Virus record (IMG/VR): IMGVR_UViG_3300025086_000098
Span: 1-36,928 of that record
Length of the DNA: 36,928 nucleotides
Reading direction: 5' to 3' (one strand)
Origin: a virus
The translations under genes and the position numbers were made by a program. Below, piece after piece: positions 1,556 through 26,435 of the stretch; the stretch's first letter is position 1, and each line of letters starts with the position of its first letter. Below the pieces are notes generated by a model. That model had not been told where the DNA came from. It did not search any database and saw only the letters and a list, made by a program, of their open reading frames with translations.

Positions 1556-1653
1556 CATTTGAAATTATTTATAACATAATAAATTATTAATGAACCAATA
1601 AAAAAACATATCATACTATATGCAAACATACCTAAACCAAAAGTGGCACTCAT
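1555..1653 (-). CDS. Membrane micro-protein (32 aa)
   Basis: A single long hydrophobic segment (residues 4-28, rich in Phe, Ile, Tyr and Gly) with a short polar end, NNFK. The ATG shares an ATGA with the stop of the long upstream gene, so ribosomes finishing that gene could re-initiate here. The stop overlaps the next start as TGATG. First of three consecutive membrane micro-proteins that fill a stretch otherwise apparently empty. Function unknown. Confidence 0.55.
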   Translation of the reverse strand: MSATFGLGMFAYSMICFFIGSLIIYYVINNFK

Positions 1654-3188
1654 TCCCAATCACTTTCTATTTCAAAAGTCATTTGATAATCATATTTAAT
1701 CTCTTTAAGATAAGGTTTAATTAAGTTCCAGTCTTGAATTGTTGGATAAGAAAAACAATTATCAGATCTTAACCAATGATCAATTGTAGTTTTTTTAACA
1801 ATATCAGCTGCATATAAACTTTTTTTATCTAAATTTTTTTTTAAGTAATTAATAAAATCTAATTTAGGTGGTAAGTGTGGTCTCATCTTAAATTTTTCAT
1901 CATAAACATCTACTAAGTGTTGATTATTTTTTAAATGTTCTATAGCTACATCCATGGATAATGTTTTCTGCACCGGTTGTTTAGACTGAGATCTATTTAA
2001 CTTACCTTTTAATATTTTAGCTGCATACTTAAAACTATTGTCACCCTTATCCATTGCGGTCGGAGTCCGATAAAACTTTTTTGATGGCAAGTCCGATGAT
2101 TCTTGCACATTGTGGGACGATTGCGTTGCCGAGGCTTTTGATTCTGTTGGCTCTATTTTTGTCCAGTTCTTTGGAAATCCCATTAGGAACTCCACAAAGG
2201 TCGGATTCAATTTGCCACCAGGTTCTATTGGTTGATTTACTTTGTTCACTACATCGTTCAACTTGGCTCCGAACTTCGTCCCAGTGCCAACCCTCGTTAC
2301 ACTCCAACCTGATGAATTCTTTTCCACTGTTTCCGGTGGTGCTGTTACGTCCATCTGACAACTTGCCGATGGCGTTGGCCACATTATCTCTCCTCTCCTT
2401 GCCATGGCTTCTAAACACTTCGATGCTTGAGTGTTTCCCTTTAGTCGATACTGTTGCTCGTTGGCCGATGGCGTTGGAAACATTTGCATGTGTGCTGTTA
2501 GATTGTGTTGAGCTGCAGCTTTCTCTCCCTTCCTTTTGATCAGTGTCTCTGCATCCTCTTGTCCCGATGCTCTCGGTGTTGGATACATCTTTACTATTTG
2601 ATTCAATGGTGGCTTCTGCCCTCCTCCTGGATGAGGCTTCCTTGGTTTCGTTATCTCGTTCGAGTCGAAACTTGTTGGAGTCGGAAATGATTGTTTCTTT
2701 GATCGAAGATGTTTCTCTACATCTCTCATGTCTTTTATCGGCATTCCTGTCTGTACTTGCTCTGCTAAATTTCCTGGTGGAATTGATTTCCTCCCTATTT
2801 TTTCTCTCATTGCTATTCTTTTCTGCATTGCTTCTGGACTCCGCTGCGAGATATCCATTGTGCTTGGAGTGAGCCACAATCCAGACTCTATTCCTTTGGT
2901 GCCAAGCACCGATGCCTGAAGCTGGAATAAGGAAACATTGGACTTCGAAACCTTCACCTTCCAATTGGTCCTGCACCTGTCGGAGTACCATGCCGTCTTG
3001 GAGGTTAATAAGGCCTTGCACATTCTCCCCAATAACGAACTCTGGTTTAATTTCTTTAATGAGTCTAAACATTTCTGGCCAGAGATATCTGTTGTCGTTT
3101 GTTCCTTTTTGTTTTCCTGCAACACTGAATGGTTGACATGGGAATCCTCCAGTAATGACATCTGCTTCGAATTCTTGTCCTTTGACAT
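1650..3188 (-). CDS. PTP-repeat protein overlapping the cytosine methyltransferase gene
   Basis: A 512-residue frame in +1 register to the methyltransferase gene. It carries repeated (W/F/Y)-x-TP-x-(S/T/A) units at residues 105-110, 168-173, 202-207, 237-242, 270-275 and 373-378, then a conserved-looking block, LNPTFVEFLMGFPKNW (327-342). Residues 381-512 lie beyond the methyltransferase stop and hold a helix-rich, probably helix-turn-helix-like region (KKTTIDHWLRSDNCFSYP, about 465-482). I recall similar PTP-repeat ORFs with an LNPxWVExLMGFP block beside or within phage cytosine methyltransferase genes, but know no established function. An AAGGAG sequence lies nine bases before the ATG. The single-coding 3' part follows the low GC of the genome. 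Possible role: DNA binding or a partner of the methyltransferase (inference). Confidence 0.72.
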   Translation of the reverse strand: MSKDKNSKQMSLLEDSHVNHSVLQENKKEQTTTDISGQKCLDSLKKLNQSSLLGRMCKALLTSKTAWYSDRCRTNWKVKVSKSNVSLFQLQASVLGTKGIESGLWLTPSTMDISQRSPEAMQKRIAMREKIGRKSIPPGNLAEQVQTGMPIKDMRDVEKHLRSKKQSFPTPTSFDSNEITKPRKPHPGGGQKPPLNQIVKMYPTPRASGQEDAETLIKRKGEKAAAQHNLTAHMQMFPTPSANEQQYRLKGNTQASKCLEAMARRGEIMWPTPSASCQMDVTAPPETVEKNSSGWSVTRVGTGTKFGAKLNDVVNKVNQPIEPGGKLNPTFVEFLMGFPKNWTKIEPTESKASATQSSHNVQESSDLPSKKFYRTPTAMDKGDNSFKYAAKILKGKLNRSQSKQPVQKTLSMDVAIEHLKNNQHLVDVYDEKFKMRPHLPPKLDFINYLKKNLDKKSLYAADIVKKTTIDHWLRSDNCFSYPTIQDWNLIKPYLKEIKYDYQMTFEIESDWE

Positions 3189-3360
3189 TTCTTATATCTC
3201 CTTCTATTGGTATGCCTGGAAAATTTTTTTGTAAAACTTTCTGACAAAATTTATCAAACTCTACAAACTTTACTGTATCAAATATATCAGTGGAGTGAAG
3301 ACCTAAACTAAAGCCTCCAATACCACTGAATAAATCTAATACCTTAAGCTTATTGTTCAA
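2047..3360 (-). CDS. dcm: DNA C5-cytosine methyltransferase
   Basis: Transfers a methyl group from S-adenosylmethionine to cytosine C5, probably masking phage DNA from host restriction. Motifs: I, DLFSGIGG (residues 9-16); IV, GGFPCQPFS (71-79) with catalytic Cys75; VI, ENV (112-114); VIII, QRNRVW (155-160); and X, LGNAIVPQ (410-417). The roughly 220 residues between VIII and X, where target recognition normally lies, are hydrophilic and Ser/Arg/Asn-rich with repeated V-(A/S)-(N/D/H) units. This is the part read in a second frame by the overlapping PTP-repeat gene. The start is TTG, overlapping the preceding gene by 11 bases; no ATG lies close enough. Catalytic core complete; sequence specificity unknown. 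Confidence 0.93.
   Translation of the reverse strand: MNNKLKVLDLFSGIGGFSLGLHSTDIFDTVKFVEFDKFCQKVLQKNFPGIPIEGDIRNVKGQEFEADVITGGFPCQPFSVAGKQKGTNDNRYLWPEMFRLIKEIKPEFVIGENVQGLINLQDGMVLRQVQDQLEGEGFEVQCFLIPASGIGAWHQRNRVWIVAHSKHNGYLAAESRSNAEKNSNERKNREEINSTRKFSRASTDRNADKRHERCRETSSIKETIISDSNKFRLERDNETKEASSRRRAEATIESNSKDVSNTESIGTRGCRDTDQKEGRESCSSTQSNSTHANVSNAIGQRATVSTKGKHSSIEVFRSHGKERRDNVANAIGKLSDGRNSTTGNSGKEFIRLECNEGWHWDEVRSQVERCSEQSKSTNRTWWQIESDLCGVPNGISKELDKNRANRIKSLGNAIVPQCARIIGLAIKKVLSDSDRNG
3198..3203 (-). promoter_or_regulatory. Internal ribosome-binding site for the overlapping PTP-repeat gene
   Basis: The minus strand reads AAGGAG, nine bases before the ATG at 3188. These bases also encode part of the GDIRNV segment of the methyltransferase (about residues 54-59), a conserved type of sequence there. 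The site decides the start of the overlapping gene and is one of the better Shine-Dalgarno matches in this part of the window. Confidence 0.6.
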
Positions 3361-4932: not shown

Positions 4933-5111
4933 GTCCTGAAAAAATAAAGTTGTTGAAAGAACTTCAAGAACTTGAAAATAAGTGGTCAGCTGATTTAATG
5001 ACTAATGGTCTTTGTACAGTTGAAATGCTTAAAACAGAAAGTGATATTAGATCTAAAAGAAATGCGATCAAGTATCAAGATGTACAAGAAAATTTAGCTG
5101 CTGTTGGTTAA
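4929..5111 (+). CDS. Small helical hypothetical protein (60 aa)
   Basis: Almost entirely charged helix (KIKLLKELQELENKW), a possible short coiled coil. Last gene of the plus-strand cassette; its stop meets the stop of the oppositely oriented homing endonuclease gene, a 4-base tail-to-tail overlap with no room for a stand-alone terminator. Function unknown. Confidence 0.5.
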   Translation: MSPEKIKLLKELQELENKWSADLMTNGLCTVEMLKTESDIRSKRNAIKYQDVQENLAAVG

Positions 5112-5536
5112 TTTTTCTTAAGTTTTAAAAAAGGAAACTTTTTACTTAGGGCATCTGTCGGCTTTTTAAACTCATAATGATTTATAATTTTAAATAACTT
5201 TTCTCTTTTAGCTACAGCATAAGGTATAAATAATTTTGCAAGATGTAGTGCTTTTTGGTGAGAGCATCTCCATCTCCATTGATCTTTCTTTCCCATTGAT
5301 CCCTTACCAATCCCTTTAAAATGTATTGAACCAACTTGAACAATATCATAAAAATTTTTAATACAATCTAAATCTGTCATGGCTATTTCCATAGCTACAT
5401 TCCATTTTAAATAAACTTTACCATTTTGTTTTTTACATTTATATTGTGCGTAATTTACATTTCCTTCACCATCAAATAGTCCAGCTGCATATCCAACTAA
5501 ATCTTGATTGTTATGTGGTTTATTATTATTTTGCAT
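5108..5536 (-). CDS. LAGLIDADG homing endonuclease
   Basis: The motif VGYAAGLFDGEGNV (about residues 14-27) is a single LAGLIDADG helix with acidic D22/E24, followed by basic strands and helices typical of the DNA-binding saddle. At 142 residues with one motif it should act as a homodimer cutting a long asymmetric site. I choose ATG 5536 rather than a TTG 30 bases upstream, which is inside the polymerase gene. The start overlaps the end of the DNA polymerase gene by 11 bases; I see no intron or intein around it, so it appears free-standing. Confidence 0.85.
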   Translation of the reverse strand: MQNNNKPHNNQDLVGYAAGLFDGEGNVNYAQYKCKKQNGKVYLKWNVAMEIAMTDLDCIKNFYDIVQVGSIHFKGIGKGSMGKKDQWRWRCSHQKALHLAKLFIPYAVAKREKLFKIINHYEFKKPTDALSKKFPFLKLKKN

Positions 5537-7400
5537 CTCCCCAACTCTTCCCAAGACCAAACTCAACTACACTTGGAACTTTAAATTCTATTGAACTTTG
5601 CATTATTTTTTGAATTTCTTTTGCATGAGATTCATCTTTAATATTAAAACATAATTCATCATGTATTTGCAACATAGGTAAATGACCAGCACTATAACAA
5701 TCTAACATTGATTGCTTTGTTTGATCTGCAGAAGATCCTTGAATTAATCTATTTAAAGCTTTGTAAGTATAAGCTCTTTTAATATTGTCCTTACCATACT
5801 TAGCAACTGCATCCTCATATTTTTCTGCGACATGCAAACCAAAGTCTCTAGTTTCCCACATTTCAAATCTACATTTTCTACCTTTTTTAGTTCTTATGAC
5901 TCCCTTTTCATCAGCTGCATATTTACATCTGTCTGATAATTTTTTTACAAAAGGAACTTTTTTATTATATTTAATAATTAATTCATTAGCCTCATCTTTG
6001 GTGACACCCAATGAGTTAGCTAACTTATTCTTACCCATTCCATACATCAAACCCAGACCAATTGTTTTTGCTTGAGTTCTTTCAATACCAACAAGGTCGG
6101 CAACAGTTTGATGAAAGTCTGCACTTGCATTTTGATAAGCCTCTACTAATTCATTAGAACCCTCATACCCATCTCCGATAGATGCTGCATAGTGTACTGT
6201 CATTCTTGGCTCCTGTTGTGAATAATCAAAACTACCCCACTTAAAACCCTCCTCTGGTATAAATAAACTACGTATTTTAGGACCAAAGTCTTTGTTTCTG
6301 GCTGGGACTTGTTGTAGATTTGGATTACTCATTGAGAGTCTACCAGATACAGTGCCTCCATTGTCTCCTCTTAATTGATTAATCTCTCCATGAATTCTTC
6401 CATTGATTTGATACTTCATGATAGAAGATAAAAAAGTTCCGTGAAATTTATTTACTTCTCTTGCACTTACAATTAGTTGTGCTATTTTGTTTTTATTATT
6501 AATTAACCAATTTTGTGTAAAGGAAGGTTCTTTTGTTTTCTCAGTTCGCGGGTATTCTAATTTCAATTTGTCAAAAGCTTTGGCAATCTGGCGGGGTGCC
6601 CAAATATCTATTTCTAGTCCTGTTTCTTTCTGTATATCCGATAGTATTACTTTTTCTTGGAGCTTCATTTCTTTTTGTAGTTCTGCAGCTTTTTCCACTT
6701 GCACTCTCACACCTCGTTGACGCATCTTTATTAATATCGGAAGCAGTTGCTGCTCCATTTCCCATACAGTAGTTAAGCTCTGTTTTACTATTTCATTTTT
6801 AAATCTTTGCCATAATTTTAAAGTAAGCTCTGCATCTTGTTCAGCATAATAACCAACATGCTCTGCCGGTAGTTTCCACATCTCTGCTTTTGGATCTATA
6901 CCATGTGCTGCTGCAGCTTCTCTTAATTCTGTCTCTGCTTTTATTTCATTAAGATAATCTACCGATAATGTATTTAAAGAATAAGAAAATCTATTCTCAT
7001 CAATCAATGCAGCTGCAATCATTGTGTCAACTATAGGTCCGTGAACCTTGATACCAGATGCTTCTAACCAACCTACATCATATTGTGCATTGTGAAAAAT
7101 TTTTGTACTCGGTAAAGCACAAATGTCTTTCATATATTTTTTTACTTGTTCAGGTATCATGTTACCCCCACCTAGATGGCCAAAAGGAAAATATCCTTTC
7201 CATCCCTCAACGGCTACTGCAAACCCTACTATCTCTCCCTTGCCCAAAGCCCAACCAGCTCCAAGTCTTTCATTAATGCCATCATCTCTAGTTTCTAAAT
7301 CAATTGCTATTTCTTTATACTGAGACAAGTCCTTATATTCACTAGGTGTATTCCACATAGATTTTTTAAAAGTTAAAGTTAATTGTAATCCGTTACTCAT
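5526..7400 (-). CDS. polA: Family-A DNA polymerase with 3'-5' exonuclease
   Basis: Replicative polymerase of 624 residues, close to T7-like enzymes in size, with no 5'-nuclease domain. Exonuclease motifs: DLE at 34-36, HNAQYD at 103-108 and YAEQD at 185-189. Polymerase motifs: A, DYSQQEPR at 392-399; B (O-helix), R441, K445 and Y453; C, HDE at 580-582. The residue equivalent to E. coli Phe762 is Leu449 in AKTIGLGLMYG, a substitution other workers have linked with slower synthesis and temperate lifestyles in marine phages. The ATG overlaps the stop of the methylase-like gene upstream. Confidence 0.96.
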   Translation of the reverse strand: MSNGLQLTLTFKKSMWNTPSEYKDLSQYKEIAIDLETRDDGINERLGAGWALGKGEIVGFAVAVEGWKGYFPFGHLGGGNMIPEQVKKYMKDICALPSTKIFHNAQYDVGWLEASGIKVHGPIVDTMIAAALIDENRFSYSLNTLSVDYLNEIKAETELREAAAAHGIDPKAEMWKLPAEHVGYYAEQDAELTLKLWQRFKNEIVKQSLTTVWEMEQQLLPILIKMRQRGVRVQVEKAAELQKEMKLQEKVILSDIQKETGLEIDIWAPRQIAKAFDKLKLEYPRTEKTKEPSFTQNWLINNKNKIAQLIVSAREVNKFHGTFLSSIMKYQINGRIHGEINQLRGDNGGTVSGRLSMSNPNLQQVPARNKDFGPKIRSLFIPEEGFKWGSFDYSQQEPRMTVHYAASIGDGYEGSNELVEAYQNASADFHQTVADLVGIERTQAKTIGLGLMYGMGKNKLANSLGVTKDEANELIIKYNKKVPFVKKLSDRCKYAADEKGVIRTKKGRKCRFEMWETRDFGLHVAEKYEDAVAKYGKDNIKRAYTYKALNRLIQGSSADQTKQSMLDCYSAGHLPMLQIHDELCFNIKDESHAKEIQKIMQSSIEFKVPSVVEFGLGKSWGDAK

Positions 7401-7881
7401 TTCTAAATATCACTATCATTAATGGTTTTATGTAAGCTATCTTATTTGGGTCGTCTTCTGTTCCATCATCATGACCAAACCTAAAACCTTTAACTGGTTT
7501 TTTTAAAAATCTTATTTCACAATTAGGATTCTTATAAATAAAATCATGAAAGTATTTAGTATGTGTGGATGATGGTAATAAAAAAACACCAGTAAAGTTT
7601 TTTGTATTGTATGCCTTTTCAACAAATTTACCAATCTTTCCATCGAATAAAGGATGGATGTAAGCAATTTCTCCAGACCAATCTTTAGTCAAACAATCAT
7701 CATCAATTGTATAATATCTTGGTAGCAAATGATTATTATGAGATGCACAACAATCAATCGTAAAATCAAACTCTTCTATTAAATCTGACCAAATATTTTT
7801 AGGTGTCCTAAGATATTTCATTATTTTAGAACAAGTAAAACTTAAGTTTGTCTTTTCATATTTTAATTTTTTATTAATCAT
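7393..7881 (-). CDS. Phage N6-adenine methyltransferase-like protein with altered catalytic motif
   Basis: The order of blocks matches the phage Dam-type N6-adenine methyltransferase family: TPKNIWSDLIEEFDFTIDCCA (about 26-46), PRYYT, LTKDWSG, then a motif-IV position, then VFLLPSSTHTKYFHD and EIRFLK. At motif IV the family normally has N/D-PP-Y; here it is HPLF (residues 76-79). The enzyme may be inactive, altered, or used as a binding protein. An internal ATG at residue 21 is an alternative start; neither has a strong ribosome site. Lies between the polymerase and a zinc-ribbon gene. Confidence 0.8.
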   Translation of the reverse strand: MINKKLKYEKTNLSFTCSKIMKYLRTPKNIWSDLIEEFDFTIDCCASHNNHLLPRYYTIDDDCLTKDWSGEIAYIHPLFDGKIGKFVEKAYNTKNFTGVFLLPSSTHTKYFHDFIYKNPNCEIRFLKKPVKGFRFGHDDGTEDDPNKIAYIKPLMIVIFRNE

Positions 7882-12873: not shown

Positions 12874-14280
12874 GTGTATAATTATAAAACAAAACCATTC
12901 AAACATCAAAGACAATCATTAATTGAAGGAGCCAAGCCTTATAACTTTGCTTATTTTATGGAGATGGGAACTGGTAAGACTAAAGTTGCTATTGATAATG
13001 CAGCTTATTTATATCAAGAACAAAGAATTAATTTTGCATTTGTGATAGCACCTAATTCTGTTTATCAAAATTGGAAAAAAGAAATTGATTTCCATTGTCC
13101 AGAGGAAACTAATATTTACATTTGGAAAGTAACCAAAGATAAAACATTTAAATTAGACCCAAAGAAACTTACATTTATATTAATGAATGTAGAGGCACTA
13201 TCTCATGCATCAGGTAAAAAATGGCTTGAATATAAATTATTGAAACATGGTATGAGAAGCATGATTATACTTGATGAAAGCACCTCTATCAAAAATCTAA
13301 AAGCATCTAGATCTAAGGCTATTATAAAACTAGGTCAATTAGCTAGATATAAAAGAATACTAACTGGTTCTCCTATTACAAAATCCCCATTAGATTTATT
13401 TTCTCAATGTGCTTTTTTAGATAAGGCATTATTAGGTTATGATAATTTCACTGTCTTCAAAGCTAAATATGCAGTAATGTATAGTATTGAAAGAGGCGGT
13501 TATAATATTCAAATTCCTAAATATTATATTAATCTCGAAGAGTTAGAATATAAATTAAAAAACTTTTCTTATAGGGTTAGAAAAAAAGATTGTTTGGATT
13601 TACCAGAGAAGATGTATGTGCAAAGATATGTAGATATGTCAGAAGAGCAAAAGCTAGCTTATGAAAGATTAAAAATTAATGCTTTAATGATAATGAAAGA
13701 TGAAGAGGTATCTTACAATAATAAACTTACTGAACTTTTAAAGCTTCAACAAGTAGCTAATGGTTTTGTAAAAACTAATGATGGTAATATTGTTGATTTT
13801 AAAACAAATGCCAAACTAAAAGAATTAATGAGTATCTTAGAAGAGAGTGAAGATAAATGTATTATATGGGCTAATTATGTACACAACATTGAAAGTATCA
13901 AAAGTAAATTAGCTGAAACTTATGGTGTTGATTCTGTAGTTTCAATATATGGTAAAGACTCAGTTGAGTCTCGAAATCAATCAGTAGAAAAATTTCAAAA
14001 TAAAGATGAGTGTAGATTCTTAGTTGGTAATCCCACAGTTGGTGGATATGGTTTAACGTTAACTGCTGCTAAATATGTAATTTATTTTAGTAATTCTTAT
14101 AACTTAGAAGTCAGACAACAAAGTGAAGATAGGGCTCATAGAATAGGACAGAAGTCTCAAGTCACTTATATTGATATAATCTGTAGAGATACTATTGATC
14201 AAATGGTATTACATAATTTAGAAAATAAAATTGAATTATCTGCTAAGACTCTTGGGGAACAGGTTCAGAAGTGGCTTTAG
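12874..14280 (+). CDS. SNF2-family (superfamily 2) helicase/translocase
   Basis: A DNA-dependent ATPase of 468 residues. Motifs: Walker A MGTGKT (31-36), Walker B LDES (133-136, so DExx rather than DEAH), III LTGSP (163-167), V GGYGLTLTAA in the second RecA-like lobe and VI QSEDRAHRIGQ (416-426), the SNF2 signature. The start is GTG with no clear ribosome site; no in-frame ATG lies nearby upstream. It is the only plus-strand gene in the replication block and its end overlaps the opposite nuclease gene by 38 bases. May remodel or translocate on DNA in replication or recombination. Confidence 0.92.
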   Translation: MYNYKTKPFKHQRQSLIEGAKPYNFAYFMEMGTGKTKVAIDNAAYLYQEQRINFAFVIAPNSVYQNWKKEIDFHCPEETNIYIWKVTKDKTFKLDPKKLTFILMNVEALSHASGKKWLEYKLLKHGMRSMIILDESTSIKNLKASRSKAIIKLGQLARYKRILTGSPITKSPLDLFSQCAFLDKALLGYDNFTVFKAKYAVMYSIERGGYNIQIPKYYINLEELEYKLKNFSYRVRKKDCLDLPEKMYVQRYVDMSEEQKLAYERLKINALMIMKDEEVSYNNKLTELLKLQQVANGFVKTNDGNIVDFKTNAKLKELMSILEESEDKCIIWANYVHNIESIKSKLAETYGVDSVVSIYGKDSVESRNQSVEKFQNKDECRFLVGNPTVGGYGLTLTAAKYVIYFSNSYNLEVRQQSEDRAHRIGQKSQVTYIDIICRDTIDQMVLHNLENKIELSAKTLGEQVQKWL

Positions 14281-14983
14281 TCTTATGATATCTATCAACT
14301 CTCTCTAACCATTTATCTTCATACTCTTTTAATTTAGATTCATTCATTTTAAACTCTTGGTACAAAACATCTTTGGTACAAATACATATAAGGCCTTGTG
14401 TTATGAGACCATATTGTTCTTTGTGTGCTAATGAGTATGCTGCTATTTGATAATAATAATCTTCTACAAACTCTTCTCTCTTTGGTTTATTGCTTTGTTT
14501 AAAGTCAATGATTGTAGGTTTATCATCATAAAGGCCGACTACATCTGTGGCTCCTGCCCATCTATCTTCATAAGCTAGACTTACTTCATTACCCCATACC
14601 TCTTTCAATAGGTCAAGATTGTTTACTATCTCATGAGCCATAAGTCTTGCTTTAGCTCCATCCTCAGAGAGATTTATATAACCACGACCATCTATGTAGT
14701 TTTCAAGGACATAGTGCATCTCCGTGCCTCTGAGAGCCGCCTGAGAGGTAATTCTAGCTGCTTCTTGGTATCCTACTCTTTCACGCCACCTATCAAGTCC
14801 AGCTTTCTTTTCTTCTGATTGAGTAGCAGACAGTATAGTTGTAACACTTGGTATTTTTTTGTTACCTACATTATAGGTCCGTGAACCGTCCTCCTCTTGT
14901 CTAGTATATTTCTTATACTTGTATTTACTTACTAACTTAAGATCGGTAATTTGAAATTTGTTATTATCTTTGATTAGTCGCAC
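14243..14983 (-). CDS. PD-(D/E)XK nuclease (RecB/MGME1-like)
   Basis: Likely a DNA exonuclease for recombination or genome processing. RGTEMH (86-91) resembles the family's GxxxH helix; the active site is GATD (144-147) then IIDFK (158-162, D160 and K162) followed by QIAAY (179-183). A glutamate at 133 (NEVSL) may complete the site. The start is GTG eight bases after the previous stop, with only weak ribosome-site similarity. Convergent overlap of 38 bases with the SNF2 gene. Confidence 0.85.
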   Translation of the reverse strand: MRLIKDNNKFQITDLKLVSKYKYKKYTRQEEDGSRTYNVGNKKIPSVTTILSATQSEEKKAGLDRWRERVGYQEAARITSQAALRGTEMHYVLENYIDGRGYINLSEDGAKARLMAHEIVNNLDLLKEVWGNEVSLAYEDRWAGATDVVGLYDDKPTIIDFKQSNKPKREEFVEDYYYQIAAYSLAHKEQYGLITQGLICICTKDVLYQEFKMNESKLKEYEDKWLERVDRYHKTKATSEPVPQES

Positions 14984-25898: not shown

Positions 25899-26435
25899 TT
25901 AAAGTTCTTGCTTATCGTTGATTTTATCATTTTTGTAGTCTGCAAAAGGACCATCTTTGTTAACATAGTGTAAAAAAAATTGAAAATGATAGTCTCCCTC
26001 ATATGGTTCTCTCCAATGTTGTAATTCACACCCCTTATAAAATACAGCATCACCTGGCTTCAAAGATACAGGTTTTCCCTCCATATAAATAGGCCAGTCA
26101 GGTTTATCTGCATCAACAAAAATTGTTACACTATATTCACAAGAAGGCCTATCTTTGTGGCTATCTAATGTAGACTTATAAGTATAACATCTCCAAAAAG
26201 AATAAGTATGGTTTAATCTTAAACCAACCTCTTCTTCAACTTTATTTTTTTTAATTTTTAAAATAGAATCTAATAAAAAATCTTTATAAACACCAGAGTC
26301 ATAATTAATGTTATCTGCAGCAAAGTCATAACATTTTCTTTGTTTACTTTTTAAATATTCTGCACACAAATTTATTTCATCTTGAGATAAAAAATTTTTG
26401 ACTACCTTATATTTTGCTCTACCTAGCTTATCCAT
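25899..26435 (-). CDS. 2OG-Fe(II)-dependent oxygenase
   Basis: Oxidises a substrate with 2-oxoglutarate and iron. Metal ligands are H93-x-D95 (DSHKDRPS) and a distal H140 (CELQHWREPYEGDYH); the core is surrounded by the usual double-stranded beta-helix pattern. Substrate unknown; phage members may modify DNA, protein or small molecules. Overlaps the next oxygenase gene by 13 bases. The two overlapping oxygenases differ clearly, so they are not recent duplicates. Confidence 0.85.
   Translation of the reverse strand: MDKLGRAKYKVVKNFLSQDEINLCAEYLKSKQRKCYDFAADNINYDSGVYKDFLLDSILKIKKNKVEEEVGLRLNHTYSFWRCYTYKSTLDSHKDRPSCEYSVTIFVDADKPDWPIYMEGKPVSLKPGDAVFYKGCELQHWREPYEGDYHFQFFLHYVNKDGPFADYKNDKINDKQEL

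Follow-up and report, generated by a model that had tools for sequence, protein, structure and literature searches.

Some Bacillus phages (SPbeta, phi3T, rho11, SPR and H2) encode multispecific C5-cytosine methyltransferases, which are single chains read in one frame and carry tandem recognition domains between motifs VIII and IX. A different arrangement is seen in M.EcoHK31I (YGGCCR), whose beta polypeptide is encoded within the alpha gene but in an alternate frame. Here we analysed two overlapping genes of a marine phage in the IMG/VR virus record IMGVR_UViG_3300025086_000098, which comprises 36,928 bases and is hereafter called the window; its only DNA match among annotated phages was Pelagibacter phage HTVC023P (79.9% identity over 28% of the query; megablast, first 10 kb). 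We consider it very likely that the two products, alpha and beta, form a two-subunit C5-cytosine DNA methyltransferase encoded in overlapping frames, in which the modules of beta would be swappable recognition cassettes and which would shield the phage. In the window, five tandem units with a putative recognition role stand in the corresponding place between motifs VIII and IX, but they are in beta, so that the array sits in a separate subunit and in a second frame. As in M.EcoHK31I, beta is read from an alternate frame inside alpha.

Passages of PMC3404938 describe M.AquI and M.EcoHK31I as consisting of two polypeptides each, with motifs I-VIII and X in the large polypeptide of M.EcoHK31I and only motif IX in the small one. 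The window likewise has motifs I-VIII and X in alpha and motif IX in beta, the latter assigned by its place and by the structural match of a fused relative; compared by description, it differs in that beta passes the alpha stop and gains a further domain, and in that its recognition modules apparently lie in beta as a shuffled array of several units. In M.AquI (CYCGRG), by the same passages, motifs IX-X and a portion of the variable region belong to the small chain (PMC3404938). Eight genome relatives resemble this layout, with motifs I-VIII in alpha and the modules, IX and X in beta, whereas the window has motif X in alpha (2110-2157) and an overlap of about 1.1 kb. A passage of PMC3077401 on DOMO describes target recognition domains of Type I S subunits that move and are gained or lost by recombination at flanking repeats. 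The window shares with DOMO putative recognition domains that are mobile at flanking repeats, but it belongs to another enzyme class and its cassettes are open in two frames.

The original prediction knew of no described overlapping pair, which did not hold, given M.EcoHK31I and some phage records that annotate both open reading frames (ORFs). Compared with M.EcoHK31I, the novelty lies in an array that is dual-coded, cassette-shuffled and, by analogy, probably multispecific. Plasmid searches for a recognisable EcoHK31I relative returned only relatives less than 60% identical, and the listed open-licence papers held no account of a dual-coded, shuffled recognition array in phages. The families of alpha and beta, PHROG_363 and PHROG_1008, are named alike, and the descriptions seen do not mark them as overlapping subunits.

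Layout of the two overlapping frames

Both genes, and all features of the pair given below, lie on the minus strand. Alpha (2047-3360, stop 2047-2049) is an ORF of 437 amino acids with a TTG start, assigned as a C5-cytosine methyltransferase large subunit by PF00145 (8.2e-53, residues 5-427) and PHROG_363 (2.4e-75). Beta (1650-3188, stop 1650-1652), the putative specificity subunit, has 512 amino acids and an ATG start in the +1 frame relative to alpha, and its best PHROG match was PHROG_1008, 'DNA methyltransferase' (4.4e-25). The two share 1142 nucleotides (nt), with the beta start 172 nt inside alpha. These results agree with the original prediction of two long ORFs overlapping by 1142 nt, with a 512-residue protein in the +1 frame. 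A separate ribosome site, also predicted, was present as AAGGAG, a nine-base spacer and ATG (3186-3203), within the alpha codons for EGDI; of 34 pelagiphage-like loci, 33 had AAGGAG or AGGAG upstream of the beta start and the remaining one had AGGA.

With motif numbers that we take over from the C5-methyltransferase family, alignment with M.HhaI from the PDB placed motif I (VLDLFSGIGGF) at 3310-3342, motif IV (GGFPCQPFS), with a Cys that we take to be catalytic, at 3124-3150, motif VI (GENVQGL) at 3010-3030 and motif VIII (HQRNRVWIVAHS) at 2866-2901. Alpha therefore has the motifs of the PF00145 superfamily, namely I, IV (PCQ), VI (ENV), VIII and X, the last in a region (NRANRIKSLGNAIVPQ, 2110-2157) where codon-position differences showed constraint on the alpha frame. 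Similarity to M.HhaI stopped at residue 163 of alpha, in motif VIII. Between VIII and X lies a linker (2158-2865), an open frame that carries V-(A/S)-N repeats and, by codon-position differences, is weakly constrained.

Beta begins with an N-domain (2877-3188), which codon positions and an N-domain profile delimit and which is dual-coded with alpha motifs IV-VIII. It continues with five modules and a motif-IX-like block (GGKLNPTFVEFLMGFPKNWTKIE, 2151-2219), assigned by its place before X and by the structural match of a fused relative. An extra TP unit (1923-2075) follows, seen in the sequence, lying mostly past the alpha stop and so mostly single-coded, and then a C-terminal helical domain (1653-1922), supported by an AF2 model and by relatives within phage DNA methyltransferases. 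The C-terminal domain unique to the second frame was thus correctly foreseen. All six predicted sites at which the same nucleotides give a V-(A/S)-N-like and an x-TP unit were present; five are module starts (2876, 2687, 2585, 2480 and 2381), and the alpha C-terminus overlaps with the sixth, at about 2075.

Coding evidence for the two frames

We recoded one frame of the overlap with its protein kept, using either permuted codons or pooled codon usage, and scored whether the other frame was open. In the window, the other frame was open in 0 of 300 trials in both directions and under both codon models. A search with the beta protein gave 50 viral loci; these and the window made 51 sequences, which were screened for pairs and comprised 30 distinct pairs, 12 sequences without a pair by landmarks in both ORFs, and 9 duplicates. 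The 30 pairs overlapped by 792-1245 nt, and their third frame had 14-32 stops per locus. When alpha was kept, beta was open in 4 of 9000 recodings with permuted codons and in 0 of 9000 with pooled usage, and when beta was kept, alpha was open in 0 of 9000 under both models. Among 65 distinct genome pairs (200 trials each), the other frame was open in less than 5% of trials in 59/65 pairs with alpha kept and in 64/65 with beta kept.

A larger viral set of 173 loci was assembled from the beta search, a profile search (80 of 517 confirmed relatives), two single-protein searches and five named phages. Together with the window, it yielded 71 distinct viral loci in which alpha was open across the whole stretch from the beta N-domain to the IX block, with overlaps of 317-1260 nt; this count includes L051, in which alpha is interrupted near its start. 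Twenty-four other loci stand outside the count, and the remainder were duplicates. Eleven of the 24 were cut by a contig end (L038, L040, L041, L044, L048, L050, L092, L097, L100, L105 and L117), and L045 and L120 (one contig), L147 and L154 were apparently frame-broken. L160 and L166 were fused, in L162 a single ORF combined modules, IX and X and no alpha ORF was found in that locus, and L153, L161, L164, L170, L171 and L173 were partial or below the profile threshold. The genome figures used here and below come from a single scan of contigs from bacterial and archaeal genomes, in which 277 relatives were found and the best 80 were examined. With 70 of these 80 showing the full +1 overlap beside the 71 viral loci, the homologue check proposed in the original prediction, that both frames stay open together, bore out the overlap for most close relatives. 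The loci with one frame full of stops were differently built genes, namely 23 of 27 other C5-methyltransferase ORFs and eight AquI-like genome loci.

Past the alpha stop, the alpha phase contained 350 stops in 2320 codons, with stops in all 17 of the 17 loci tested. The eight AquI-like loci had 6-19 alpha-phase stops (alpha's own included) between the end of alpha and IX, with like modules present. These results confirm that the two frames both behave as genes. The recoding, together with the stops in the alpha phase where alpha is not needed, led us to reject chance or composition as the origin of the second frame.

Constraint switches between the frames

We determined pairwise differences per site at alpha codon positions 1, 2 and 3 in the 34 pelagiphage-like loci; the pairs were 60-97% identical and not independent, and some module families rest on 6-20 pairs. 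The values at positions 1/2/3 were 0.149/0.092/0.390 in the alpha-only part, 0.095-0.167/0.030-0.092/0.145-0.246 in the beta N-domain stretch and 0.139/0.075/0.316 in motif X (30 loci). The nine module families gave 0.184-0.414/0.072-0.216/0.034-0.187 (family 3: 0.364/0.171/0.068; family 7: 0.311/0.092/0.034), the IX block 0.211/0.073/0.110 (30 loci) and the beta-only C-terminus 0.318/0.113/0.055 (11 loci). Because alpha position 1 is beta position 3, the wobble belongs to the beta frame inside the array and to the alpha frame on either side of it. In 9/9 module families tested, alpha third positions (0.03-0.19 differences per site) varied less than beta third positions (0.18-0.41). Module identity was 0.50-0.78 in the alpha frame versus 0.69-0.90 in the beta frame, and over the N-domain stretch both frames were held (identity 0.83-0.90 in alpha and 0.67-0.84 in beta). 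Alpha is the constrained frame in motifs I-III and X, and beta in the modules and the IX block.

Since the constraint over the modules and the IX block lies on beta, the V-(A/S)-N repeats of alpha look like shadows of beta in a passenger linker, and the recognition domain is most likely located in beta. The candidate that the alpha repeats form a real recognition domain was rejected on the codon-position data. The predicted link between the overlap and the recognition region therefore stood, and the idea of a recognition domain built in the methyltransferase frame did not. Alpha, described beforehand as a complete C5-cytosine methyltransferase, is complete as an ORF but probably incomplete as an enzyme, because the M.HhaI similarity stops at motif VIII and the recognition-domain stretch is constrained in the other frame. 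In single-chain enzymes of the M.HhaI type, the recognition domain and motif IX share the chain with motifs I-VIII; the window lacks this arrangement.

TP modules are shuffled among betas

Clustering assigned the window modules to family 1 (module 1, 2688-2876), family 16 (module 2, 2586-2687), family 3 (module 3, 2481-2585), family 18 (module 4, 2382-2480) and family 5 (module 5, 2220-2381), giving the order 1-16-3-18-5. Module 1 and the sole module found in Escherichia phage Delraymugoa (L053) fell into one family. Segmentation of 128 betas (71 viral and 57 genomic whose N-domain passed the threshold) yielded 432 modules; most proteins had two to five, with a range of 1 to 6 and with 0 in one beta in which the pattern found none. 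Thirty of the 32 module families with at least two members occurred at two or more ordinal positions, a count weakened by the over-merging of family 0 by single linkage and by upstream module gain or loss, which also moves ordinal position. Among 5687 locus pairs with N-domain identity of at most 40%, 245 had in common a module of 65% identity or more, which stood at different positions in 154 of the 245; none of these pairs includes the window. These results show that the TP modules are shuffled among betas.

Over beta, the locus L002 has 97.1% identity with the window, from which it differs by the exact absence of one 99-nt module, corresponding in length to module 4 and bounded in the window by the 14-nt direct repeat CCAACGCCATCGGC. 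Between arrays with unlike modules, alignment gaps were not divisible by three in 4/6 pairs, which we read as misalignment. The joint word ATGTATCCAACACC was found in at least 42 of 95 joints, and three of its beta third positions were 82-86% one base, a bias due in part to codon preference. The L002 case apart, recombination at the joint word is therefore likely rather than proven. The joints share one phase, so that reshuffling leaves both frames open, if each cassette is open in both.

Block order, fused relatives and structure of beta

The order of blocks in beta is the N-domain, a variable array of units, LNPxFVEFLMGFPxNWT and, in some, a C-terminal extension. The units mostly start with (Y/F/W)-P-T-P; their general form is (Y/F/W)-x-T-P, usually preceded by Met. 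In L160, L166 and L202, a single ORF carries motifs I-VIII, TP modules, an L(N/S)PDWVECLM block and X, and the fused L160 matched both PHROG_363 and PHROG_1008. These fused ORFs, and the eight genome loci with IX and X in beta, support a recognition domain located in beta. The AF2 model of L160 (mean pLDDT 79.3, pTM 0.76) was compared with M.HhaI over model residues 1-350, with low-confidence stretches excluded, and matched with a Z of 26.2 (234 residues at 2.8 A). The reading of the LNPxFVEFLMGFPxNWT-type block as motif IX is well supported by its place before X and by this match of the modelled relative. By position, analogy and shuffling, the TP units would be recognition modules.

The helical C-terminal domain of the window beta was modelled by AF2 with pLDDT block means of 81-91 (residues 441-500). 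Its relatives lay in five phage records, annotated as DNA methyltransferase in 4/5 and without annotation in 1/5. One relative (L256 2501-2674) is inside a methyltransferase of Staphylococcus phage Alsa_2 with an SPPY motif, which presumably marks a class other than C5. As it recurs inside this SPPY-type enzyme, the C-terminal domain may be a portable DNA-binding domain.

Spread and alternative architectures

Besides the full +1 overlaps, 8 of the 80 genome loci had an AquI-like layout, with alpha ending after motif VIII and beta carrying the modules, the IX block and motif X; alpha is interrupted in two of these, L207 and L248. Two of the 80 were classed as fused, but one of them, L239, is an interrupted ORF that was joined rather than a true fusion. 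By eye, the alpha N-terminal ORF of L239 (1144-2643) seems interrupted by an in-frame HNH-like insert, and L190 (3911-5041) and L248 (3493-4536) show an extra TP-like unit between motif IX and motif X. Among phages, Paenibacillus phage Bloom carries an alpha/beta pair with both ORFs annotated, and pairs also occur in Escherichia phages Delraymugoa and pangalan, in an uncultured Chosvirus with alpha interrupted near its start, and as split pairs in both mycobacteriophages examined. In 58 viral loci, the spacing from VIII to X in alpha was 64-296 amino acids. Three plasmid loci contain a beta ORF although alpha alone is listed in a gene table that is incomplete by its own account; for this reason, enzymes cloned from annotation could miss the specificity subunit, and methylome studies could misassign them.

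The record of Streptococcus phage MM1 annotates two ORFs as alpha and beta subunits (L259 1303-2460 and 1454-1879); alpha has its own motif-IX-like block and beta has little beyond the N-domain, which suggests from sequence that the N-domain may act without recognition modules. An N-domain profile that stopped short of the first module was built on nine genome betas and run on a pool of 11,956 ORFs. It recovered separate +1 ORFs of the fused L160 (1.1e-21), L202 (6.7e-19) and L166 (4.3e-6), as well as the annotated beta of MM1 (1.9e-5), and an N-domain ORF in +1 overlap was accordingly found in each of the four architectures seen. We then considered other C5-methyltransferase ORFs, sampled as 27 distinct ORFs of at least 240 amino acids that passed the alpha profile among the matches listed (excluding, for example, L285 and L286). 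No N-domain-like +1 ORF was present in 23/27, whose longest +1 overlap was 264 nt. Such an ORF occurred in 4/27 (63 genomes), 3/4 of them from seed genomes, and in 1/16 of the unseeded ORFs (60 genomes). The N-domain overlap is not general to C5 methyltransferases.

Proposed two-subunit enzyme and rival explanations

In the enzyme that we propose, alpha would supply the large domain for S-adenosylmethionine (AdoMet) binding and catalysis (I-VIII) and motif X, with a variable linker between them, and beta would supply an N-terminal partner domain, the array of recognition modules, an additional DNA-binding-like domain and motif IX; alpha and beta would come together as a single enzyme. The modules would act as separate recognition cassettes, each with its own DNA target; several short sequences would then be methylated and the phage genome shielded from several host restriction enzymes. 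Such multispecificity is suggested by the module arrays and by analogy with the known Bacillus phage enzymes. Relatives gain, lose and exchange cassettes, and the probable route is recombination at the short repeated word in the DNA of the joints, whose phase keeps both frames open. Among 20 neighbour proteins (of 44 listed; loci with at most two modules), no restriction-endonuclease Pfam family was found; 7 matched no family, and the others include phage-type and adenine-methyltransferase genes. Such surroundings suit an enzyme that protects the phage and has no partner nuclease.

Several observations weigh against this proposal. In the passages of PMC3404938, the predicted recognition domain of M.EcoHK31I is placed in the large subunit, whereas in the window the constraint there is on beta. 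AF2 modelled the window beta alone with low confidence (mean pLDDT 52.6), and the module region of the L160 model lies largely below pLDDT 50, so that a module is not seen as a recognition domain in any structure. A search of the PDB with the beta profile was empty up to an E of 10, and neither the window beta nor five AquI-like betas were convincingly named by Pfam. Motif IX of the fused L202 went undetected by sequence, phmmer aligning only residues 2-166 with M.HhaI. The N-domain profile reached the window beta at 1.2e-4 only and missed the betas of Delraymugoa and of the Citrobacter plasmid L255.

Beta might also be a real split-enzyme subunit whose TP modules jointly form one long recognition surface, with a single specificity altered by their number and order. 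That no module has a known target speaks for this and against separate cassettes, and AF2 gives no separate folds; yet module number runs from 1 to 6, with one in Delraymugoa, one module type is found in arrays of unlike length and at different positions, and multispecific phage enzymes carry tandem recognition domains, and we regard a joint surface as rather unlikely. If alpha were instead a full methyltransferase alone, beta would be an overprinted accessory, for example an anti-restriction or regulatory protein. The end-to-end coverage of alpha by PF00145 favours this and counts against our proposal, and MM1, with its IX-like block in alpha and a beta barely more than an N-domain, points the same way. 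We nevertheless consider an accessory role improbable: the alpha frame drifts in the modules (identity 0.50-0.78 against 0.69-0.90 in beta), the VIII-to-X spacing in alpha ranges widely, as given above, and TP modules and the IX block stand within the catalytic chain of L160, L166 and L202.

Programmed frameshifting could join alpha and beta into one chain, as the existence of single-frame fused relatives might suggest, but beta starts separately, from a ribosome site of its own, 172 nt into alpha, and two shifts would be required, one after motif VIII and one back after IX, which makes this very improbable. Scarcely credible, finally, is a second frame that codes for no protein and owes its existence to composition or to repeat codons. 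It is true that V-(A/S)-N and TP units share nucleotides, so that one would yield the other, but this reading is opposed by the recoding tests, by the beta-specific C-terminus with its beta third-position wobble, by the AGGAG-type sites before beta in 33/34 loci and by the 23/27 other C5-methyltransferase ORFs without an N-domain-like +1 ORF.

More broadly, and with the two-subunit enzyme with swappable cassettes as the preferred reading, we lean slightly towards a large, mostly unrecognised class of phage methyltransferases. Its interchangeable cassettes, open in two frames, would lie in the alternate frame, with a fixed-phase joint word for reshuffling; its N-domain, dual-coded with IV-VIII, would be an old overprinted gene, and its recognition part would have moved between frames. 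The locus would make one object of the two motifs that the original prediction noted as recurring in phage databases. About 1 kb of dual coding is kept in loci recorded under many bacterial phyla (best 80 of 277 relatives), and cassette swaps under two-frame constraint provide a natural experiment in protein evolution.

Other open reading frames of the window

A second ORF of the window (7393-7881, minus strand) matched a DNA methyltransferase PHROG (phrog_111, 3.8e-28). An HNH endonuclease ORF (5108-5566, minus strand; phrog_5046) overlaps the end of a DNA polymerase ORF (5526-7400). The ORF at 25899-26435 (minus strand) matched a ferrochelatase-named PHROG (1.9e-48) and is a possible auxiliary metabolic gene. 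A helicase-like ORF (12874-14280, plus strand) lies on the strand opposite to the other large ORFs and overlaps an exonuclease-like ORF (14243-14983, minus strand) tail to tail.

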